From the IMG/VR virus record IMGVR_UViG_3300021959_006017, positions 172,752-236,751 of that record: 64,000 nucleotides of DNA. One strand, 5' to 3'. The notes beneath the pieces were generated by a model. That model saw only the letters and a program-made list of their open reading frames with translations. It had not been told where the DNA came from and made no database searches. This DNA is from a virus. The position numbers were made by a program, and so were the translations under genes. Shown here one piece after another: positions 1,822 through 64,000 of this stretch (its first letter is position 1; each line of letters begins with the position of its first letter).

Positions 1822-3681
1822 ATGAGCGAAAGAGAATATATTGTTACGTTAAAGAAAGGTGTAGACTACACTGCATTTAATGCAGAAATGATTGCTACAA
1901 CTGGCGCAGGTGACATACCAGGTAGAAGTGTTACGGTTGCTAACGCTCGTCCAGCATCACAGCGTAATACACACTATATGCTTACTGATGCAGAAGCAAC
2001 AGCACTTAACAATGATGCAAGAGTAGTTGCATGCGAGTTACGTCCAGATCTAAGAGATGACATTGAACTAGTCCGTTTCGCTCAACAGACTGGTGATTTT
2101 AGTAAGACTGAAGATACACGTGGTGAATATGTTAACTGGGGATTGCGTAGAGTTAACGAAATAAACAATCCTTACTTTGGATATAGCATTTCAGGAGGAT
2201 ACAACTACACACTTGACGGTACAGGTGTAGACATTGTTATCCAAGACAGTGGTTTACAAATAGATCATCCTGAGTTCCAAGATAGTTCAGGTACTACACG
2301 AGTAGTACAACAAGACTGGTATAGCGGATTCAGTGGCGGCGGATCTATGCCAACAGAACACTACACTGATTATGACGGACACGGTACTCACTGTGCAGGG
2401 ATTGCAGCAGGTAAAACATATGGTTGGGCTAAAAATGCACGTATCTATGCTGTAAAAGTTAATGGCTTACAAGGAGCGAGTGATCCTAACAGCGGTATTC
2501 CAATCACAAATGTTTTTGATGTTATTAAAGAATGGCATGCAGCTAAAGCAGTTGACCCTGTTACTGGCGCAAAACGTCCGACTATTGTTAATATGAGTTG
2601 GGGATACACGTCTGCTTTTGCAAACATCACTGGAGGAGAATATAGAGGAACTCCTTGGACAGGCACTGCTAGAGATACTGCTAAAGGTATGGTAGGAAAT
2701 TTAGTTAGCGGACTTTATAGATATCCTACAAGAGTTGCTTCTGTAGATACAGATGTTGAAGAACTAATCGATGCAGGAGTACATGTTTGTATTGCCGCAG
2801 GTAACTACAAACAAAAGATTGATGTAGATGGTGGCGCTGACTATGACAACTACTTTACAAGTAGCCTATACGGAACAAGATACTATCATAGAGGAGGATC
2901 ACCGTATGGCCAAGAAGCATTTATTGTAGGCAATATTGATACTGATCTTGCAAGCAATGGTAGAGAACAAAAAGCAACTAGTTCAGAAACAGGCCCGGGT
3001 GTAAATGCATGGGCTCCGGGGACTAGAATCTTTAGTAGTTTAAGTACAACTACAGCATATACTAGTGGACCATATCCACTAGACAGCGATTTTAATATTG
3101 GTAGCTTAGGTGGTACTTCAATGGCTTCTCCACAAGTAGCAGGTGTACTTGCATTATGGTTGCAAGTAAATCCAGGTGCAACTCCTGCACAAGCTCTTAG
3201 TTATTTTAAAAGTAGCTCTAAAACAGATAGAGTATATCAAACAGCAAACAACGATACAGACTACACAGACAATAGAAGTTTATTAGGTTCTAGTAACAGA
3301 TTTCTTTGGAATAAGTTTAACCGTAAAACTCAACTTTCTATCGGAAGTGTATTTACAGAAGCAGAAACAGATACTAGTATAATAAAAACTTACTCTTTGG
3401 CTTCGAGTGCAGCAAGTGTAAATGAAGGTGATAGTTTTACTATTACTTTAACTACAACAAATGTTCCAGATGATACTGTTATAAACTACGGTATTACTGG
3501 TGTTTCTAGCGGAGATATCGGCGTACCACTAGACGGAACATTTACTGTATCATCTGACTCAGCAACAGCAGATTTTACAGTGTCAGCTGACACAACACTA
3601 GAAGGTGCAGAAACTTTTACTATGACATTAGAAGGCATAAATGTTTCAGTTAGTGTAACTATAAATGATACTAGTACATAA
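1822..3681 (+). CDS. Subtilisin-like serine protease, virion-associated
   Basis: This 619-residue protein carries the S8 (subtilase) catalytic triad: D142 in IQDSGLQIDHPEF, H187 in YDGHGTHCAG and S433 in GGTSMASPQVAG. Residues 1-75 may be an I9-like propeptide. The last 100 residues (VNEGDSFTITLTT and following) look like a Calx-beta-type adhesion domain. No secretion signal is visible. It lies between two fibre/virion genes and follows a late-type promoter box, so a virion-borne protease is likely; it could process fibre proteins or digest host surface protein. Family assignment is firm, the biological target is not known. Confidence 0.93.
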   Translation: MSEREYIVTLKKGVDYTAFNAEMIATTGAGDIPGRSVTVANARPASQRNTHYMLTDAEATALNNDARVVACELRPDLRDDIELVRFAQQTGDFSKTEDTRGEYVNWGLRRVNEINNPYFGYSISGGYNYTLDGTGVDIVIQDSGLQIDHPEFQDSSGTTRVVQQDWYSGFSGGGSMPTEHYTDYDGHGTHCAGIAAGKTYGWAKNARIYAVKVNGLQGASDPNSGIPITNVFDVIKEWHAAKAVDPVTGAKRPTIVNMSWGYTSAFANITGGEYRGTPWTGTARDTAKGMVGNLVSGLYRYPTRVASVDTDVEELIDAGVHVCIAAGNYKQKIDVDGGADYDNYFTSSLYGTRYYHRGGSPYGQEAFIVGNIDTDLASNGREQKATSSETGPGVNAWAPGTRIFSSLSTTTAYTSGPYPLDSDFNIGSLGGTSMASPQVAGVLALWLQVNPGATPAQALSYFKSSSKTDRVYQTANNDTDYTDNRSLLGSSNRFLWNKFNRKTQLSIGSVFTEAETDTSIIKTYSLASSAASVNEGDSFTITLTTTNVPDDTVINYGITGVSSGDIGVPLDGTFTVSSDSATADFTVSADTTLEGAETFTMTLEGINVSVSVTINDTST

Positions 3682-3690
3682 GGATTAATA

Positions 3691-4389
3691 ATGGCAGTAC
3701 AACTAATAAACATAGGTAATGTTGCAAATGATGGTACAGGTGATGATCTAAGAGAAGCATTTATCAAAGTAAACCAAAACTTTGAAGAGCTTGATCTAAG
3801 AGATGACGAAAAAACTACAGGTAGTAATCTTGGGCCAGACGGCGAAGGTCTTTTTGCAAATAGAATCAACTATGATCTACAGTTTAAAAAAATCGTAGGC
3901 GGAGATAACATTACACTTACTGCTACAGATAATAATATTACTATAAGTAGTGAAAGCACACTTACAATAGCAAGTGATTCTGGAGATACTGACTTAGTTG
4001 GATCTACTACTTTGAATATTTTAGGCGGAGACGGAATAAGCACATCTGCTACAGATAATACTCTTACAATCACAAATGATTATAATGCAGAACTAGTAGA
4101 AGATCTTACACCCCAACTAGGTGGCAATCTAGATGCACAAGGGTTCAACCTTACAAATGTTGGAAATATAGATGCAGCACAAGTATCTGGTTCGTTTGTA
4201 GGTAACTTAACAGGACTAGTACACGGTTACGATATGAGAGATTGGGCAAGCTGGAACGAAGGTTGGGACTTTGGTGCTGTTTCAGAAGATTATACTAGTG
4301 CTATACAGTTTATCGTTGCAAACACAGCCGTTGATTTCGGTAGCTTTAGTGCTCCAGCAGTAGGTAATGTAGATTTAGGAAGTATTTGA
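3691..4389 (+). CDS. Virion structural protein, fibre-associated
   Basis: A 232-residue protein beginning INIGNVANDGTGDDLREAF, a short motif that recurs at the N-terminus of marine T4-like virion proteins; a related pattern is seen at the start of the protein at 9522. The rest is acidic and beta-prone, with two repeats around T-A-T-D-N-(N/T)-(I/L)-T-I and a fibre-like GSFVGNLTGLVHG segment. It follows the protease with a 9-base gap and has no recognisable enzyme motif. Structural role is inferred from composition and neighbours. Confidence 0.7.
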   Translation: MAVQLINIGNVANDGTGDDLREAFIKVNQNFEELDLRDDEKTTGSNLGPDGEGLFANRINYDLQFKKIVGGDNITLTATDNNITISSESTLTIASDSGDTDLVGSTTLNILGGDGISTSATDNTLTITNDYNAELVEDLTPQLGGNLDAQGFNLTNVGNIDAAQVSGSFVGNLTGLVHGYDMRDWASWNEGWDFGAVSEDYTSAIQFIVANTAVDFGSFSAPAVGNVDLGSI

Positions 4390-4393
4390 TTCC

Positions 4394-4402
4394 GATAAAT
4401 AC
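4394..4402 (+). promoter_or_regulatory. Late-promoter-like box GATAAATAC
   Basis: GATAAATAC lies just after the stop of the previous gene and 21 bases before the ATG of the 1176-residue virion protein. Confidence 0.55.
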
Positions 4403-4422
4403 TACTGTAGAAGGAATCACGT

Positions 4423-7400
4423 ATGGCCAATCCCGATAGTTTATGGAGTATCCAAACAGGTAAAAAGATTGCAACACTGATCGAAAGATCTAATGTTAAT
4501 CTTTTACTCCCGTTAAATGTAAATATCCCAAGTACAGTTAAAATTATAACAGGATCCTTGCCTGCCGGGTTAAGATTATCAGCAGACGGAAAGTTTATTG
4601 AAGGCACAGTTTACGAAGTAGCTTATAATACTACAAGTAAGTTTGTATTAAGGGCAGAATATCAAGGTCAGTTTGAAGATAGAACTGTACAGATAGATGT
4701 AAGCGGACCTGATGACCCTGTATGGCAAACAAACGAAGGGTTATTACCAGTAGGAAGTAATCAATCTTTGTTTATACTTGATAACGAGCAAGTTGACTTT
4801 CAACTACAAGCAACAGATACTGATCTAAGTGCAGGCGATATTTTAGAATATTTTATAGCAGAAGGAGACGGCGAGCTTCCTCCAGGCATTACGCTATCTT
4901 TAGATGGAAAACTTACAGGTATAGTAGAACCTCTATTAAGTTTAGATAAAAGGTATCAAGCAGGAGGCTATGACGGTGCGCCGTATGGAGCACTTCCTGC
5001 AGATTATGGCACAATATCTTCAAATGGTTATGGTAGTTTCTTTTACGATACTGTAGATTTTGATTACAACGAACCAGTTGTTAATCCTAGAAAACTTAAT
5101 AGATTTTATCCTTTTAGAGTAACTGTTACAGACGGCGAAAACTTTGTTAAACGAGAGTTTAAAATATATCTTGTCGGCGATGATTATTTAAAAGCAGATA
5201 ACACTATTATGCAAGCAGGAACAGGAGTGTTTACTGCTGATACAACTAATGTTAGAACTCCAGTTTGGCTTACACCTAGAGACTTAGGATTTAAACGTGC
5301 TAATAACTATACTACAATCAACTTAGATATTATTGATAATCCAAACTTAGAAGGTGTAGTAACATATACATTAGATAGTACAAACGATGACGGTACTCCT
5401 AGCATATTACCTCCAGGGACTTCACTAGATAGTCAAAGCGGAGAAATAGTTGGTCGTATTCCGTACCAACCAGCAATAACAAAAGATTATAAGTTTACTG
5501 TTAGAGCAACAAGAATAACAACAGATTTAGATACTGTTTCTATTAATGCCAACTACTATGAAGATACTTTGTTAGGTAAAGATAACTTTAAAATTTATAA
5601 AATAGATTTAACTGGCGATATCGACGGTATAAACGATTTATTAGAGCTTATTGGTAGAGACATACTTTTAGAAAATAGAACGTATAGAGTAACCAACGTT
5701 GATGCTAGAAATACTGATTATGACATTATTTTCTTAGATAGTACTTTATCTCCTAGCATCAGTTTAATAACTAGCAGAACTGCACTTAAAAATCAAGATG
5801 CTGTTTTTGTTAATAGATTAAACGAATCTCAAAAAGAAAAGTACAGAGGACGTACTATACGTCTTAGTGACAGTGAAGCATATGTTATAAATGATATTGT
5901 TCCTTATATAGAATGGGACATTCAACAAGTAACCCCGGGTAATGATCAAATATATCCGAACGGATCTCCAAGAAGAATGGAAGCAGGAACAAACTATTTC
6001 TTAGGAGATCTTGTCATTTACGGAACAGAAGTAGGTGGCAATGATAGAGTTTACAGGGCAACATTTACTCATAACTTAGAAGCTCAAACTGATCCTGTAA
6101 CAGAAGTTCCAATCACAGTAGATGGTGTTGTACAAGTTGTCTTTAATCCTGCTAACTGGACTGAAGTAGTTGAAAACCCAGATGATCTATCACTGTCTGA
6201 TAGAGTTCTTGCACTTAAACAATCTTTAGAAGCAGCATACGGACACACAGCATATGTAGATGTATTTAATCAGCAAAACTGGAGATTACGCATTCCTAGT
6301 ACAAGTTTAAGTAGAATCGCAAAAAATATTGAGCAGTTCTTCTTACTAGGCGATGATAGTACAAGAATGAAAATCACTACAGTTAGAGATAATGAAGACA
6401 GAATAAAGTTTGATGTAAATCTTTCTACACAATTTAACCAAGGACGAAACATAGGTATTGCACTATTTAGAAATGAAGGATTTGTAGAAAATGTTATTGT
6501 TGCAGCAAATGACGAAGTAGATATTCCAAGCACATCTAAAACTTTTGAGATTAAAGTTATAGGAGAAATAGACAGTAATATATCTTGGATAACAGCAGCA
6601 GATCTTGGAACTATACGTGCAAACTTCAACAGCTACTTAAAAGTAGTAGCAGAAACTACAGTTCCAGATAGTCCTATGATTTATACATTAAAGTCGGGTA
6701 AACTTCCTTTTGGTATGCAACTAAGTTATAACGGAGATATTACCGGTAATCCTAGACAATACCAAACTAGCGAAGGACTTGGTCTTACAATATTTGATAA
6801 TAAGGCAGTAACATTCGATGGCTTTATTCCGGGCGATACTTCCTTTGACAGAAGATATAACTTTACTATTGAAGCTCGTGATAGATTTGGATATACAGCA
6901 ATAGAAAGAGAGTTTACACTTTTAGTTGAAGATTTAGACAATACTGTGTATACAGACATATATGCAAAACCGTTAATCCCTGCAGAACAAAGAACTGCAT
7001 TTAGAAACTTTACTAGTAATCCGGACATATTTCCACCAAATAGCATTTATCGTCCAAACGATCCTTCGTTCGGTGTTAAAACAAGTTTAGAAATGCTAGT
7101 ATATGCAGGTATAGAAGCAAAAACTATTGAAAACTTTGTAGCGGCAGCAGCTAAAAACCATAAAAGAAAAACTTACGCAGTTGGTGAGATAAAAAGTGCT
7201 AAAGCTATTGAACCAGGAACTACCGACACTGTTTATGAAGTTGTATACTTAGAAGTTGTAGATCCTAGTCAGCCTACTACAGGAAAAACAAGAAAAAGTT
7301 TTAGCATAGAAAACAAAAAGAAACTTACTGTTGACAGTATACAGTATGCTCTTAAAGATGACGAAACTAGAACTGGTGCAGGTTATGAACTATTACCAGT

Positions 7401-41929: not shown

Positions 41930-42668
41930 AGGCTTCGTAGGAAGTGCTTTATACGATAGATTGAGTTTACGTAACGATGTACAAGCGGTACACGGTATAG
42001 ACTTAAAAGACGGACAAGATTTACTTACATTTGATCGATGGCGTGAAGTAGATCTTGTTATTCATCTTGCAGGTAAAAGCGGTGTACGTGAAAGCCTAAG
42101 TGATCCTAGTTCTTATTGGTTTAATAATGTAGAAGCAAGTCGTAAACTATTTGAACGTTATGCAGATACACGCATACTATATGCGAGTAGTTCGAGCGCA
42201 TACGAACCCGATCTAAATCCTTATGCGGCTAGTAAGTTTTGTTTGGAAGAACTTGCAGAACGTTATCCAAATACACTGGGTATGCGTTTCCATACAGTGT
42301 ATTCAGAAAAATGTCCCAGAGAAAATATGTTCTTTAACAAACTATTAAATGGTAAACTAGAATATGTAACTAGGCACTATAGAGATTTTATACATCTAAA
42401 CGACATACTAGATGCAATAGAAATACTAATCAACGCTACACATGTCAAGGGTGTAGTTGATATCGGAACAGGCAATCCTGTAAAGATCCAAGACTTGGCG
42501 CCGGACTTACCTGTCCGTCTAAATACCCCAGGAGAGAGAAGTTGGACTTGTGCTAACATAGAAAAAATGAAAGCACTAGGCTTTAAACCTAAATACTCAG
42601 TAGAAAACTTCTTGACAAACAAAGGCAAAGATAATATAATAAACTTATTCAATGGAGAAACAGTATGA
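41904..42668 (+). CDS. NAD-dependent sugar epimerase/dehydratase (SDR)
   Basis: A 254-residue extended SDR starting at GTG 41904 within the end of the PMM gene. ILITGNKGFVGSAL is the GxxGxxG NAD site, VIHLAGKSGVRES the second SDR signature, and NPYAASKFCLEEL the YxxxK catalytic pair. ASSSSAYEP contains the catalytic serine. The C-terminus is shorter than in GalE. It probably makes a GDP- or UDP-linked sugar together with the PMM-like protein. The promoter of the clamp gene is embedded in its 3' end. Confidence 0.83.
   Translation: MHILITGNKGFVGSALYDRLSLRNDVQAVHGIDLKDGQDLLTFDRWREVDLVIHLAGKSGVRESLSDPSSYWFNNVEASRKLFERYADTRILYASSSSAYEPDLNPYAASKFCLEELAERYPNTLGMRFHTVYSEKCPRENMFFNKLLNGKLEYVTRHYRDFIHLNDILDAIEILINATHVKGVVDIGTGNPVKIQDLAPDLPVRLNTPGERSWTCANIEKMKALGFKPKYSVENFLTNKGKDNIINLFNGETV
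42612..42640 (+). promoter_or_regulatory. Sigma70-type promoter of sliding clamp
   Basis: TTGACA (42612-42617), exactly 17 bases, TATAAT (42635-42640), lying inside the last codons of the epimerase gene and 25 bases before the clamp ATG. Confidence 0.85.
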
Positions 42669-57442: not shown

Positions 57443-58528
57443 ATGGAAAACTCAGCACTACGCACTGTAACGCCTAACAAGGCTAAGAAATCAATCCAAC
57501 GAGCTTTTGCTAAAAAGCGTCCTATCTTCCTTTGGGGACCTCCAGGCATTGGCAAATCAGATATTATTCACCAGATTGGTGATTATATGGATGCTCACGT
57601 TATTGACATTCGTTTGTCACTTTGGGAGCCAACAGATATTAAGGGTATTCCTTATTATGCGGCTAACGATAACAAAATGGTGTGGGCAGCTCCGTCAGAA
57701 CTGCCAGACGCAGAACTGGCTGCAAAACACAAATACGTTATTTTGTTCTTAGACGAAATGAACTCGGCAGCGCCAGCAGTACAAGCGGCAGCATACCAGT
57801 TGATTTTGAATCGTAAAGTAGGACAATATGTACTGCCAGACAATGTTCTTATTGTTGCGGCAGGTAACCGCGAAGCAGATAAAGGTGTTACATATCGTAT
57901 GCCTGCTCCGTTGGCAAACCGTTTTGTTCACTTGGAAATGGCAGTTGACTTTGACGACTGGTTCCAGTGGGCTGTTAACAACGATATTCACAAGGATGTT
58001 GTTGGTTACTTGACGTTTGCTAAGAAGGACTTGTATGACTTTGATCCTAAGTCACCGAGCCGTTCTTTTGCAACACCTCGTTCTTGGTCGTTTGTATCAG
58101 ACTTACTTGACGACGAAGGCGATGAAGAAACAACAACAGATCTTGTATCAGGTTCAGTTGGTGAAGGTTTGGCTGTCAAGTTCATGGCGCACCGTAAAGT
58201 TGCGTCAAAGATGCCCAACCCAACTGATATTTTGGCAGGTAAGGTCAAAGAGCTACAGAACAAAGAAATCAGTGCTATGTATTCCCTTACTGTTTCTCTT
58301 TGCTATGAGTTGAAAGAAGCATCAGACAAAAATGACAAAAAGTTTGATGACAAAGTCAACAACTTCCTGCGCTTTGCAATGGATAACTTTGATACTGAGT
58401 TAGTTGTTATGGGTATTAAACTCGCACTAACACAGTATGCATTGCCCATTGATCCAGACGAAGTGGAATGCTTTGATGAGTTCCACGATCGTTTTGGCAA
58501 ATACATTAAGGCTGCTCAATCAGTATAA
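57443..58528 (+). CDS. MoxR-type AAA+ ATPase
   Basis: A 361-residue AAA+ protein. Walker A is GPPGIGKS (32-39), Walker B is VILFLDEMNSAAPAVQAAAY, sensor 1 is VLIVAAGNREADKG, and the arginine region is MPAPLANRFVHLEM, all in MoxR arrangement. MoxR proteins usually act with a von Willebrand factor A protein as chaperone for metal or cofactor insertion or protein assembly. The VWA/metallopeptidase protein is encoded next door after a strong terminator and promoter. Confidence 0.9.
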   Translation: MENSALRTVTPNKAKKSIQRAFAKKRPIFLWGPPGIGKSDIIHQIGDYMDAHVIDIRLSLWEPTDIKGIPYYAANDNKMVWAAPSELPDAELAAKHKYVILFLDEMNSAAPAVQAAAYQLILNRKVGQYVLPDNVLIVAAGNREADKGVTYRMPAPLANRFVHLEMAVDFDDWFQWAVNNDIHKDVVGYLTFAKKDLYDFDPKSPSRSFATPRSWSFVSDLLDDEGDEETTTDLVSGSVGEGLAVKFMAHRKVASKMPNPTDILAGKVKELQNKEISAMYSLTVSLCYELKEASDKNDKKFDDKVNNFLRFAMDNFDTELVVMGIKLALTQYALPIDPDEVECFDEFHDRFGKYIKAAQSV

Positions 58529-58635: not shown

Positions 58636-59937
58636 ATGAGCGATATGAGTAAAACAAGTTGGACTCCAGACCCCAACATTACTCCTGAACAACTTGACGA
58701 AATGCGTGTAGAAGTACTTGACCGCATTATTGTTGCACGAGTAGGTTTGCTACTACGTCATCCTTTCTTCGGTAACATGGCAACACGACTGCGTATTTTA
58801 TCTGCAGACGACTGGTGCCCTACTGCCGCTGTAGACGGACGTAACCTTTATTTCAACACACAGTTTTTTAATGCAATGTCAAACAAAGAAATCGAGTTTG
58901 TTATTGCACACGAAATCCTGCACTGCGTATTTGACCACTTAGATCGTAGAGAAGACCGTGATCCTATGATCTTCAACATTAGTGCAGACTATATTGTAAA
59001 CAACACACTAGTACGTGATCGTATTGGCGAAATGCCCAAACTAGTAAATTGTTTCCAAGACTTTAAATACGAAGGTTGGACTTCAGAAGAAGTTTACGAT
59101 GACATCTTTAAAAAATATGATGAAGAACAACTTAAACAACTAGGCGAACTGCTTGATGAGCATCTTGACTGGGGTGATGATGGTGATGGTAACGAAGGCG
59201 GTAGCGAAGGCCAAGAAGGCGAAGATTCAAACGGTAACAAAACTAGCAAGAAGCGTCCTAGTTATTCTAAAGAAGATTTACGCAAGATTCGCGATGAAGT
59301 AAAAGAAAGTATGCTTAGTGCCGCACAATCGGCAGGCGCAGGTAACGTTCCTGCAGGTGTTGAGCGCATGATTAAAGAGCTTACAGAACCTAAAATGAAC
59401 TGGCGTGAAATACTACGTCAACAAATCCAATCAACAATCCGTAACGACTTTACATTTAGTCGTCCATCACGCAAAGGCTGGCACACTGGTGCTATTTTGC
59501 CTGGTATGAACTTTGACACAACTATTGATATTTGTGTTGCACTTGATATGAGTGGTAGTATTGGTAACCCGCAGGCTGCTGACTTCTTAGGTGAAATCAA
59601 AGGCATTATGGACGAGTTTAAAGACTACAATATCAAGATTTGGTGTTTTGATACTAAAGTTTATAACGAGCAAGACTTTAGTGCAGACGGCGGTGAAGAT
59701 CTTATGGACTACGAAATCATGGGCGGTGGCGGCACCGACTTTATGGCTAACTGGCACTACATGAAAGAAAACGATATTGTTCCTAAAAAGTTCATTATGT
59801 TCACAGACGGCTATGCTTGGGATAGTTGGGGTGAAGATGATTACTGTGAAACAATCTTTGTTATTCACTCACACCATGACAAAAATGTACAGGCACCATT
59901 TGGTATAACTGCACACTACGAAGAAAATGTTGCATAA
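58636..59937 (+). CDS. Metallopeptidase-like and VWA-domain protein (MoxR partner)
   Basis: A 433-residue protein. Residues 25-160 form a putative zinc peptidase domain with IEFVIAHEILHCVFDHLDR (H92-E-I-L-H96). A linker rich in G, E, D and S follows (about 178-205). Residues 295-433 are a VWA-like domain with VALDMSGSIGN (MIDAS D304-x-S306-x-S308), GGGGTDFM and FIMFTDGYAWD. This is the VWA-like/DUF2201 arrangement that pairs with MoxR ATPases. ATG 58645 is an alternative start. Target unknown. Confidence 0.85.
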   Translation: MSDMSKTSWTPDPNITPEQLDEMRVEVLDRIIVARVGLLLRHPFFGNMATRLRILSADDWCPTAAVDGRNLYFNTQFFNAMSNKEIEFVIAHEILHCVFDHLDRREDRDPMIFNISADYIVNNTLVRDRIGEMPKLVNCFQDFKYEGWTSEEVYDDIFKKYDEEQLKQLGELLDEHLDWGDDGDGNEGGSEGQEGEDSNGNKTSKKRPSYSKEDLRKIRDEVKESMLSAAQSAGAGNVPAGVERMIKELTEPKMNWREILRQQIQSTIRNDFTFSRPSRKGWHTGAILPGMNFDTTIDICVALDMSGSIGNPQAADFLGEIKGIMDEFKDYNIKIWCFDTKVYNEQDFSADGGEDLMDYEIMGGGGTDFMANWHYMKENDIVPKKFIMFTDGYAWDSWGEDDYCETIFVIHSHHDKNVQAPFGITAHYEENVA

Positions 59938-61458: not shown

Positions 61459-62679
61459 ATGGCTTTACGTCTAAGACGCGGTACAGACGCACAACGACAA
61501 CTTATAACGCCGAGCGAGGGCGAGTTAATCTATGTTACAGACACCACAGAACTATATGTAGGTGATGGAACCACATTAGGTGGTATTAGAATATCAGGAG
61601 AAGTTGTTGATACACTTAATCAACTAGATGACGTTGATGCCGCATTACCGCAAGACGGTGACGTTCTAGTTTACGATAGTGCAACAGGCGATTGGGTAGC
61701 AGGTGAGCTTCCATTAGGTGATTTATCAGACGTAGAAGTTAGCGGAGTACTAGACGGACAAGTTCTTGCATTTGATGCAGCAACTACTTCTTGGGTTCCT
61801 GCAAACAATGTAGGAGGTGGAGATACTACCTTTAGCGGTGATTTAGTAGGTAGTGTATTTGCAGACGATTCTACTATAATGGTAGATGCAGTATCTGCTC
61901 GATTCTTCGGAAGACTCGAAGGCACTACAGTCGGACAACATATTGGTAATGTAGACGGAGATCTTTCAGGTAATGTTAATGGTACAGTATTTGGAGAACT
62001 TTCGGGGTCTGTATTCGGCGATGATTCAAGTTTAATCGTAGATGGACCAACAGGATTTATAAATTCTCGTAAAATAGATGCAGGAGCATCTAGATTACAC
62101 CTACAAGGTGATACTTTGGGTATTGTTGCAAATGACGGAAATACTGTACAGATTGGCGGAACAGACTACGACGGAACATTCAAAAATAATACTTTAAGCA
62201 TAGCTAGAAATGGAACTAGTGGCATTGCTTTTAGTATAGAAACATATCACGAAAGTGATAATGTTGCTGATTTTAGAAGTGTTAAATATAGAGGAACAAC
62301 TAGTGCTCCTGCAACATATCAAAACGGTGACAGATTACTAGAGTTTGTAGCTTCAGGCTACGATGGTTCAACCATTTCAGACGGCGGATTTATTAAATTT
62401 ATTGCAGATGGTTCAGCAGCAAATAGTTTAATACCAGCTAAAGTTCAACTTCAAGTTCCAAACGCCACAGCAACTGCCGGTATTACATATGAAGGTAACA
62501 AATACGGCACATGGTCTGCTTCACAGTTAATGTTAACTCCTTTAGATGCAGAACCAACAGACGTTGCAGAAGGAATGATTGCTGTTGCTGATAGAGCAAC
62601 TTGGGATCCTGCTGCAAAAGGTTCGGGCGGAAGTTATGTTGTTTATTACGACGGTTCAGCTTGGAACGCAATGTCCTAA
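61459..62679 (+). CDS. Tail fibre-like protein
   Basis: A 406-residue fibre. ALRLRRGTDAQRQLITPSEG followed by ELIYVTDTTELYVGDG is a common phage fibre N-terminal (hyaluronidase/tropism-determinant-like) domain. Two copies of a GSVF(A/G)DDS module (near residues 132 and 182) and a GNVNGTVFGELSG stretch match the fibre at the window start. The C-terminal 60 residues (LMLTPLDAEPT, GMIAVADRATWDP, YYDGSAWNAM) are clearly related to that fibre's end. Receptor-binding role is inferred. Confidence 0.83.
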   Translation: MALRLRRGTDAQRQLITPSEGELIYVTDTTELYVGDGTTLGGIRISGEVVDTLNQLDDVDAALPQDGDVLVYDSATGDWVAGELPLGDLSDVEVSGVLDGQVLAFDAATTSWVPANNVGGGDTTFSGDLVGSVFADDSTIMVDAVSARFFGRLEGTTVGQHIGNVDGDLSGNVNGTVFGELSGSVFGDDSSLIVDGPTGFINSRKIDAGASRLHLQGDTLGIVANDGNTVQIGGTDYDGTFKNNTLSIARNGTSGIAFSIETYHESDNVADFRSVKYRGTTSAPATYQNGDRLLEFVASGYDGSTISDGGFIKFIADGSAANSLIPAKVQLQVPNATATAGITYEGNKYGTWSASQLMLTPLDAEPTDVAEGMIAVADRATWDPAAKGSGGSYVVYYDGSAWNAMS

Positions 62680-62698: not shown

Positions 62699-63652
62699 AT
62701 GAAATATGTAAATCTTCCAGAACACATATGGTGGTCTGTTAATAATGTTCCATATGCAAACTTTAAGAGTTTTTTAGATAAATCAGAAAAACTAGAAAAG
62801 TTTGATTATCAAATATTAAATAATATTTCTATTGAATCTAAATCCTTTAGAGAAGAATGCATCAGTGCTGCATCTCTTCTTCCAGATCTACATCTAGCAA
62901 TACCTGTAAGCGGAAGTGATAGTGAAATAGTAGCACGTTCTGCTCATGCTAACGGAAAAAAGGCTACTATATATTACGAAGACTATCCTTGGGCTGATTC
63001 TAGTTATAAAGAAAAAAGTATGAAACTAGCATATGATCTTGGTTATGATTGGATTGGGTTCGAAGCCGACTACGACGAATGCTTAGAACGAATGAAATAT
63101 TACAGTGTAAAACTAGGTAATATGAGTAGAGGGTTCCTTATTAGCATGGGTATGTTTGATAAGATTCCAAATGAGCAGTTTATTGTAGGAGGACTAGGCG
63201 AACTTGAAAAAGATGGCTGGATATATCGTAAAACTATAGAAAACTGTATAGGTGAAGACTGGGACAAAGAAGTAGTTATACCGTGTCCTCCTACAGAAAT
63301 GATTTGGTGGTTATACGGTGAAGAAACAGGAAAACAAGGTATGTGGACTTTTTTTAATAGCACCCTACCTTTAATAAAAAGTCAAGCAACACACCCTTTG
63401 CTAAGTTATGGTAAACAAAACAAAGGAGTGTGTAATACTATTGCTTTAAAAAACAGCGAATGGCCTGAACTTATATTCAAATCAAAAACAGATCATTTTC
63501 ATCCATCAGATGATTTTTATTTAGAAATTTATTATAAAATGGAGGAAAATATGTATAAACATTATCCTCGAGAGTTGTTTAGTTTAGTTAAGAATGGATT
63601 TTGTGGATTTGTTAATTACACAAAAATATTTGACACTTCCTCAGTTTTATAG
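62699..63652 (+). CDS. PP-loop/asparagine-synthase-like protein
   Basis: A 317-residue protein. LHLAIPVSGSDSEIVARSAH contains an S-G-x-D-S-E type PP-loop as in the asparagine synthase C-terminal domain and other ATP pyrophosphatases. KKATIYYEDYPWADSSYKEK follows as the substrate region. It lacks the zinc cysteines of QueC, so it is not a clear QueC. A possible amidotransferase-like or sugar/virion modification enzyme. It sits right after a fibre gene. Confidence 0.65.
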   Translation: MKYVNLPEHIWWSVNNVPYANFKSFLDKSEKLEKFDYQILNNISIESKSFREECISAASLLPDLHLAIPVSGSDSEIVARSAHANGKKATIYYEDYPWADSSYKEKSMKLAYDLGYDWIGFEADYDECLERMKYYSVKLGNMSRGFLISMGMFDKIPNEQFIVGGLGELEKDGWIYRKTIENCIGEDWDKEVVIPCPPTEMIWWLYGEETGKQGMWTFFNSTLPLIKSQATHPLLSYGKQNKGVCNTIALKNSEWPELIFKSKTDHFHPSDDFYLEIYYKMEENMYKHYPRELFSLVKNGFCGFVNYTKIFDTSSVL

Positions 63653-63658
63653 TATAAT
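63630..63658 (+). promoter_or_regulatory. Sigma70-type promoter of tctA
   Basis: TTGACA (63630-63635), 17-base spacer, perfect TATAAT (63653-63658), located in the last codons of the upstream gene. The expected transcript start coincides with ATG 63665. Confidence 0.85.
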
Positions 63659-63664
63659 AGTAAT

Positions 63665-64000
63665 ATGTTAGAAGTTCTACTTATTATTGTTCTAGGAGTA
63701 TTATGGGGATTGGTTTTTGGTGTGATTCCAACAGCAGGTCCTACCACAGCACTTCTAACATCATATGCTTTCTTTCCATTGTTCTATGACAATCCTTATC
63801 TAGGTGTTGCATTTTATACAGCAATGATAGCAGCCTGTACCACAGGTGATACATGGAGTAGTATCTTACTCGGCATACCTGGGTCAAGTTCAAGCGCCGC
63901 AACTATTGTGGACGGATATCCTTTGGCACAAAAAGGCAAAGCTACAATGGCTCTGAGTGCAGCTTTTACCAGCAGTACATTTAGTGGCTTGTTGTTTGGT
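63665..64000 (+). CDS. tctA: TctA-family tricarboxylate transporter permease (3' end outside window)
   Basis: The frame from ATG 63665 is open to the window end, giving 112 residues of a TctA-type large permease. VFGVIPTAGPTTALLTSYAF matches the TctA GVLPG.GP..G signature, and WSSILLGIPGSSSSAATIVD with GYPLAQKGKATMALSAAF matches the second conserved block (S.LL..PG..A....DGY..A..G.A..AL). TctA is the 12-helix permease of TctABC transporters for citrate and similar acids. TctB or TctC are not visible. No ribosome-binding site precedes the ATG. Confidence 0.9.
   Translation, partial: MLEVLLIIVLGVLWGLVFGVIPTAGPTTALLTSYAFFPLFYDNPYLGVAFYTAMIAACTTGDTWSSILLGIPGSSSSAATIVDGYPLAQKGKATMALSAAFTSSTFSGLLFG

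Follow-up and report, generated by a model that had tools for sequence, protein, structure and literature searches.

Tripartite tricarboxylate transporters (TTT), such as TctCBA of Salmonella (TC 2.A.80), combine a TctA permease and a small TctB membrane subunit with a TctC-type solute-binding protein. The TctA family is characterized by a duplicated motif, G-Hy3-G-Hy3-G-Hy2-P-G-Hy-G, which lies in TM1 and TM7 and has been modelled near the pocket, while the TctC pincer contacts the substrate carboxylate via two waters (PMC5812351). No solved structure of a TctA was found. Fusion of TctA to TctB was reported as rare, with one case, in a 2018 review (PMC5812351). In viruses, tctA has been listed on SUP05 viral contigs as a 'protein domain hit only' of unknown role (eLife 2014, PMC4164917), and a myovirus scaffold from an oxygen-minimum zone has 'tricarboxylate transport' among its tabulated annotations, next to norB/nirK (PMC8115048). 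In the text consulted, neither of these two reports describes a TctC partner, a loss of TctB, selection on the gene or its phylogeny. The TctA-TctC pairing, the absence of TctB, the phage clade and the motif changes described below are apparently undescribed in the literature searched.

The window analysed here is a stretch of 64,000 nucleotides at the very end of a virus record of 236,751 b (G000). It would end inside the first gene of a phage transport cassette, tctA followed by tctC, and we consider it likely that these auxiliary metabolic genes encode a phage-adapted, TctB-less TctA-TctC carboxylate importer. TctA permease homology and an adjoining TctC-type fold are common to the phage and the Salmonella system. 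The phage differs in that no TctB was found, in its gene order (tctA-tctC versus tctCBA), in altered TM1/TM7 and pincer motifs, and in being encoded on phage genomes. By sequence, the permease is a TctA-family protein and the system as a whole would work like a TTT transporter, but it is not classed as a canonical one, since TctB was sought and not found and two signature motifs are changed.

The tctA gene, its promoter and its phage setting

The following features of the window are relevant to the locus.

57443 to 58528, + strand: AAA ATPase gene, syntenic with PA5oct EST35_0335 (50.5% identity); viral context
58636 to 59937, + strand: DUF2201/VWA protein gene (PF13203), syntenic with PA5oct EST35_0340 (42% identity, E 8e-105); viral context
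61459 to 62679, + strand: tail-fibre-like protein gene with an Mtd_N domain (PF18454, E 1.5e-10); viral context
62699 to 63652, + strand: gene just 5' of tctA, with an SGxDSE PP-loop-like motif in its family alignment
63630 to 63635, + strand: tctA -35 box, TTGACA (12/12 consensus with a 17-b spacer)
63653 to 63658, + strand: tctA -10 box, TATAAT, ending 6 nt before the ATG
63665 to 64000, + strand: 5' part of the phage tctA (aa 1-112 of about 473; PF01970, E 3e-23), continued in L008

The tctA frame is open through the last base (112 aa) and is cut at 64000 because the contig ends there. Its product matches profile positions 1-104 of 423 in PF01970 with 82.6 bits (cut-off 28.9), in agreement with an earlier note, made from the letters alone, that had read a TctA N-terminus at this place. 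The closest sibling contig, L008, starts inside tctA; its first 217 b are 97.7% identical to window positions 63784-64000, and the overlapping proteins are identical at 72/72 aa. Because this continuation is open for 433 aa and then reaches a stop, the full-length window-phage TctA would comprise about 473 aa. A broken gene past 64000, which the note had named as the outcome that would speak against it, was therefore not seen in the closest sibling. The L008 and L002 proteins match PF01970 at positions 37-423 (293 bits, E 3e-87) and 2-423 (317 bits, E 3e-94), both above the same cut-off. In all, nine viral contigs encode tctA, with 70-83% identity to the window part (100% for L008), and full-length frames of 439-481 aa free of internal stops are present in L002, L003, L004, L005, L006, L007 and L009. 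A tblastn search of 50,697 phage records with the window TctA gave no match. Comparison of the siblings gave a tctA dN/dS of about 0.06-0.19, with many pairs near synonymous saturation; the close pairs L002/L003 and L006/L007 gave 0.13 and 0.07, respectively. These sequence comparisons show the phage tctA to be under purifying selection.

The near-consensus sigma70 promoter that had been proposed before tctA proved to be a perfect TTGACA-N17-TATAAT. On the + strand of the window, 4 such 12/12 sites were observed versus 0.03 expected, and sites of at least 11/12 numbered 16 on the + strand (2.9 expected) versus 1 on the - strand. As the sites exceed expectation on the + (coding) strand, we regard promoters of this type as real features of the window phage. 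Besides the tctA promoter, the coding strand has perfect TTGACA/TATAAT pairs at window positions 42612, 51031 and 58575, their boxes 16-17 b apart. In L002 and L003, TTGACT-N17-TATAAT is found at the same place before tctA, with diverged spacers, and 5-6 nt separate the -10 box from the tctA start in the window (63653-63665), L002 (8995-9012) and L003 (5362-5379). A start 7 nt past the -10 box would coincide with the ATG, and no Shine-Dalgarno sequence before tctA was visible on inspection, which suggests that the tctA mRNA is leaderless, with transcription starting on the start codon or right beside it. The arrangement is different in L005, L006 and L009, where the preceding gene runs up to or into tctA.

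In the part of Pseudomonas phage PA5oct (Arenbergviridae) that was compared, 26 window genes find matches, with gene order largely conserved as far as the ATPase and DUF2201 genes. Contig G000 is, by sequence, from a jumbo phage of marine type related to PA5oct, and the two share a syntenic replication/structural block before the tctA site. Beyond the ATPase and DUF2201 genes, PA5oct is without tctA, whereas the window phage carries it there. The gene at 62699 to 63652 has no match in Pfam, NCBIfam or PHROG; gene clustering indicated that its family recurs near or upstream of tctA in other phage loci. In L009 the terminase large subunit lies 2.5 kb from tctA, and L005 has an endolysin gene on its tctA-bearing contig; these two contigs have little else in common with the examined parts of G000. 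On this sequence evidence there are at least two phage contexts for the tctA-tctC pair, which probably moves as a cassette. A search for the T4 Gp23 capsid family had no match in six records, nor in its controls, and no overlap was found between the far end of L008 and the start of G000. The PA5oct synteny, the L009 terminase near tctA and the low dN/dS identify tctA as an auxiliary metabolic gene, that is, a metabolic gene of cellular origin that is maintained in a phage genome.

As the contig ends inside tctA, the gene could in principle be a passenger host gene fragment or the product of a chimeric assembly. This explanation is very improbable, given that siblings have the same gene and promoter place, that the phage genes upstream are the same in L002 and L003, and that the frames are intact with low dN/dS. 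A chimera at the contig end was rejected in particular because siblings, too, have tctA and its promoter joined to these upstream phage genes.

The TctC-type partner and the search for TctB

In all loci that reach far enough, the gene directly 3' of tctA encodes a 339-344-aa protein with an export-signal-like N-terminus. These proteins are 66-83% identical to that of L008, and the gene has a dN/dS of 0.05-0.19 (again with many pairs near synonymous saturation). Pfam, NCBIfam and PHROGs gave the protein no name, and a search of the phage records with PF03401 found no match. A structure model of moderate confidence (pLDDT 64, pTM 0.60) was compared with known structures; every one of its best 16 PDB matches is a binding protein of the TctC/Bug type, with the malate-binding MatC in first place (E 1.5e-9) and TphC, Bug27 and BugD among the others. 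A profile of the phage protein searched against the PDB matched nearly exclusively TctC-type chains, weakly (best E 0.0075), and the same profile finds the TctC beside cellular TctAB with E values down to 6e-27; those cellular genes match Pfam TctC. Sequence and model together indicate that the protein is a divergent TctC. The siblings thus encode a TctC-type solute-binding protein with the permease, so that the phages have TctA and TctC as a pair instead of the permease alone. Since contig G000 ends before tctC, we infer the pairing in the window phage itself from its siblings.

The TctB family, PF07331, had no match in the ten phage records, all of which are fragments. Because TctB is poorly conserved, a TctB-like profile was built from 17 fused TctB-like domains of cellular proteins. 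In cellular controls it gave E values of 1e-65 to 1e-75; in the fragmentary phage records it matched only by its first 30-38 positions, which correspond to the last TctA helix. The phage TctA ends where TctB would begin, and the small membrane subunit of TTT transporters was thus not found in the phage records. The earlier note had advised looking past the window for both partner genes; in the siblings, tctC was found directly 3' of tctA and TctB was not found.

These results bear on the suggestion, also made in the note, that the phage swaps its large permease onto host TctB/TctC. The suggestion is not supported, because the phages encode their own TctC in the next gene. In a related form, the phage permease would be a replacement subunit on host TctB, perhaps with host TctC too, and the phage TctC would act as an extra specificity adapter. 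The missing TctB in the phage records would fit such an arrangement, as would the terephthalate TTT system, the sole one with reported deletions, in which both membrane subunits are essential (PMC5812351). We nevertheless consider it unlikely: every locus reaching that far has its own phage TctC, the host may have no separate TctB to act as partner because the close cellular systems fuse TctB to TctA, and cross-assembly with host subunits is doubtful because identity is only 32-39%.

Cellular relatives and likely substrate

Cellular relatives were drawn from about 780 sampled genomes. Among 385 alphaproteobacterial genomes, the class of the metagenome-assembled genome (MAG) MED657, the best 20 cellular matches to the phage TctA are frames of 646-746 aa with 32-39% identity, in which TctA is followed by a C-terminal TctB-like domain, beside TctC. 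The phylum-wide genome sample gave the same fused TctA-TctB picture among its matches. The sampled Pseudomonadota matches commonly have TctA fused to TctB, beside TctC (L031-L049, L060-L070), in several cases with PrpF/TcuA/TcuB.

A scan of the genome collection with the TctA alignment had a sole find, a viral contig inside MAG MED657. This contig, NZHE01000012.1 (L004/L027), placed in a 'Rickettsiales' MAG, is identical with a tctA-tctC contig listed as viral in IMG/VR. MAG MED657 gives weak host evidence because the contig is probably a phage contig binned with it.

The fused TctAB+TctC systems, found in operons with PrpF/4-oxalomesaconate tautomerase, TcuA and TcuB, are the closest to the phage in both TctA (32-39%) and TctC (21-25%), and share with it the loop PGSSSS-[AQ]-ATVLDG-[FY]-P. 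The phage system differs from them in that it has neither the catabolic enzymes nor any of the TctB domain, in its reversed gene order and in its place on a long separate branch. In the tree, the phage TctAs form one clade with support of 100/100, a 99/92 branch parts phage plus fused forms from the single TctAs, and the fused TctA-TctB clade itself has support of 55/77. The phages may have lost TctB, or their branch may be older than the fusion. The note had advised a phylogeny to find the donor; the nearest cellular relatives are the fused forms, and from the sequences we infer that the phage TctA-TctC is no recent copy but a branch of the bacterial TctC/TctAB system that has been remodelled in phages.

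Clustering of the neighbours in ten fused loci found a PrpF-family gene, 4-oxalomesaconate tautomerase in NCBIfam, in 7/10. Among the other neighbours, a TcuA-type flavoprotein and a TctD-like regulator with sensor kinase each occur in 4 loci, TcuB and isocitrate-type dehydrogenases each in 3, and aconitase in one 1.2-Mb genome. The enzymes in this set are those for aconitate- or tricarballylate-like C6 acids. Because the cellular relatives sit with such enzymes, the best guess for the substrate of the phage system is a tri- or dicarboxylate; it is only a guess, because the phage TctC has just 21-25% identity to cellular ones.

Altered motifs and predicted function

At 46/64 cell-invariant TctA positions, all phages are unchanged, and the GIPGSSSS...DGYP loop and FGIPG are kept. 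Clade-wide changes affect PGLGG, which is PTAGP in TM1 and PGVHG in TM7, and GG at 297-298, which is AA or AS. The duplicated TM1/TM7 motif of the family is thus incomplete in the phages, with GxxxGxxxGxxP kept in all of their sequences. In the partner protein, the TctC pincer P-F-x-A-G-G-x-x-D is replaced by P-S-P-[KQ]-G-T-G-T-[AS], a clade-wide loss of 'GGxxD'. As the changes are fixed in both partners under purifying selection, they suggest altered specificity rather than decay. With the TctA glycines and TctC pincer replaced, the phage system may differ in its substrate or in its coupling to ions, or may no longer transport at all.

The clade-wide alteration of signature motifs in both proteins would also fit a membrane/periplasm pair repurposed away from transport, for example in superinfection exclusion, in ligand sensing or in envelope modification with its neighbours; the cassette does adjoin GNAT, TauD-like dioxygenase, PP-loop and radical-SAM genes. 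A non-transporting pair is improbable, however, when so many invariant TctA positions are retained, the two loops among them, and when binding protein and permease are kept as a pair under purifying selection.

Under the preferred reading of a TctB-less importer, the phage TctC would be exported to the periplasm and capture a small carboxylate there, most likely a C6 tricarboxylate (citrate, aconitate, tricarballylate) or a related dicarboxylate. It would hand this to the phage TctA for import by an ion gradient, the importer working without a TctB of its own; the need for both membrane subunits in the terephthalate system speaks against this last point. Such import would give the infected cell carbon and TCA-cycle intermediates, to the benefit of the phage. 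The earlier proposal that phage TctA boosts carboxylate uptake holds insofar as the gene is phage-borne, maintained and furnished with its own sigma70-like promoter, and uptake of a carboxylate is its most plausible role. A fuller version, which we offer only tentatively, is a two-part, TctB-independent importer with a changed pocket and permease signature that takes up an infection-relevant carboxylate and is passed as a cassette between unrelated phage lineages. If the importer is real, phages would equip infected cells with a complete high-affinity importer, made up of binding protein and permease, in place of one subunit, and would feed carbon skeletons into them by it; it would also be a natural TctB-less TTT system, making the unsolved role of TctB testable.

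Further genes accompany the cassette in some siblings. By eye, from the starts of the sequences, long runs of radical-SAM/SPASM-like and glycosyltransferase genes lie before or after it in G007 and G003 (L022-L026). In L008, positions 2330-6463, 3' of tctC, encode a conserved HxD...H protein, a GNAT acetyltransferase, a TauD-like dioxygenase and a PP-loop protein. The HxD...H protein is possibly a 2-oxoglutarate oxygenase; several of these L008 genes may use 2-oxoglutarate, and carboxylate import could feed them.
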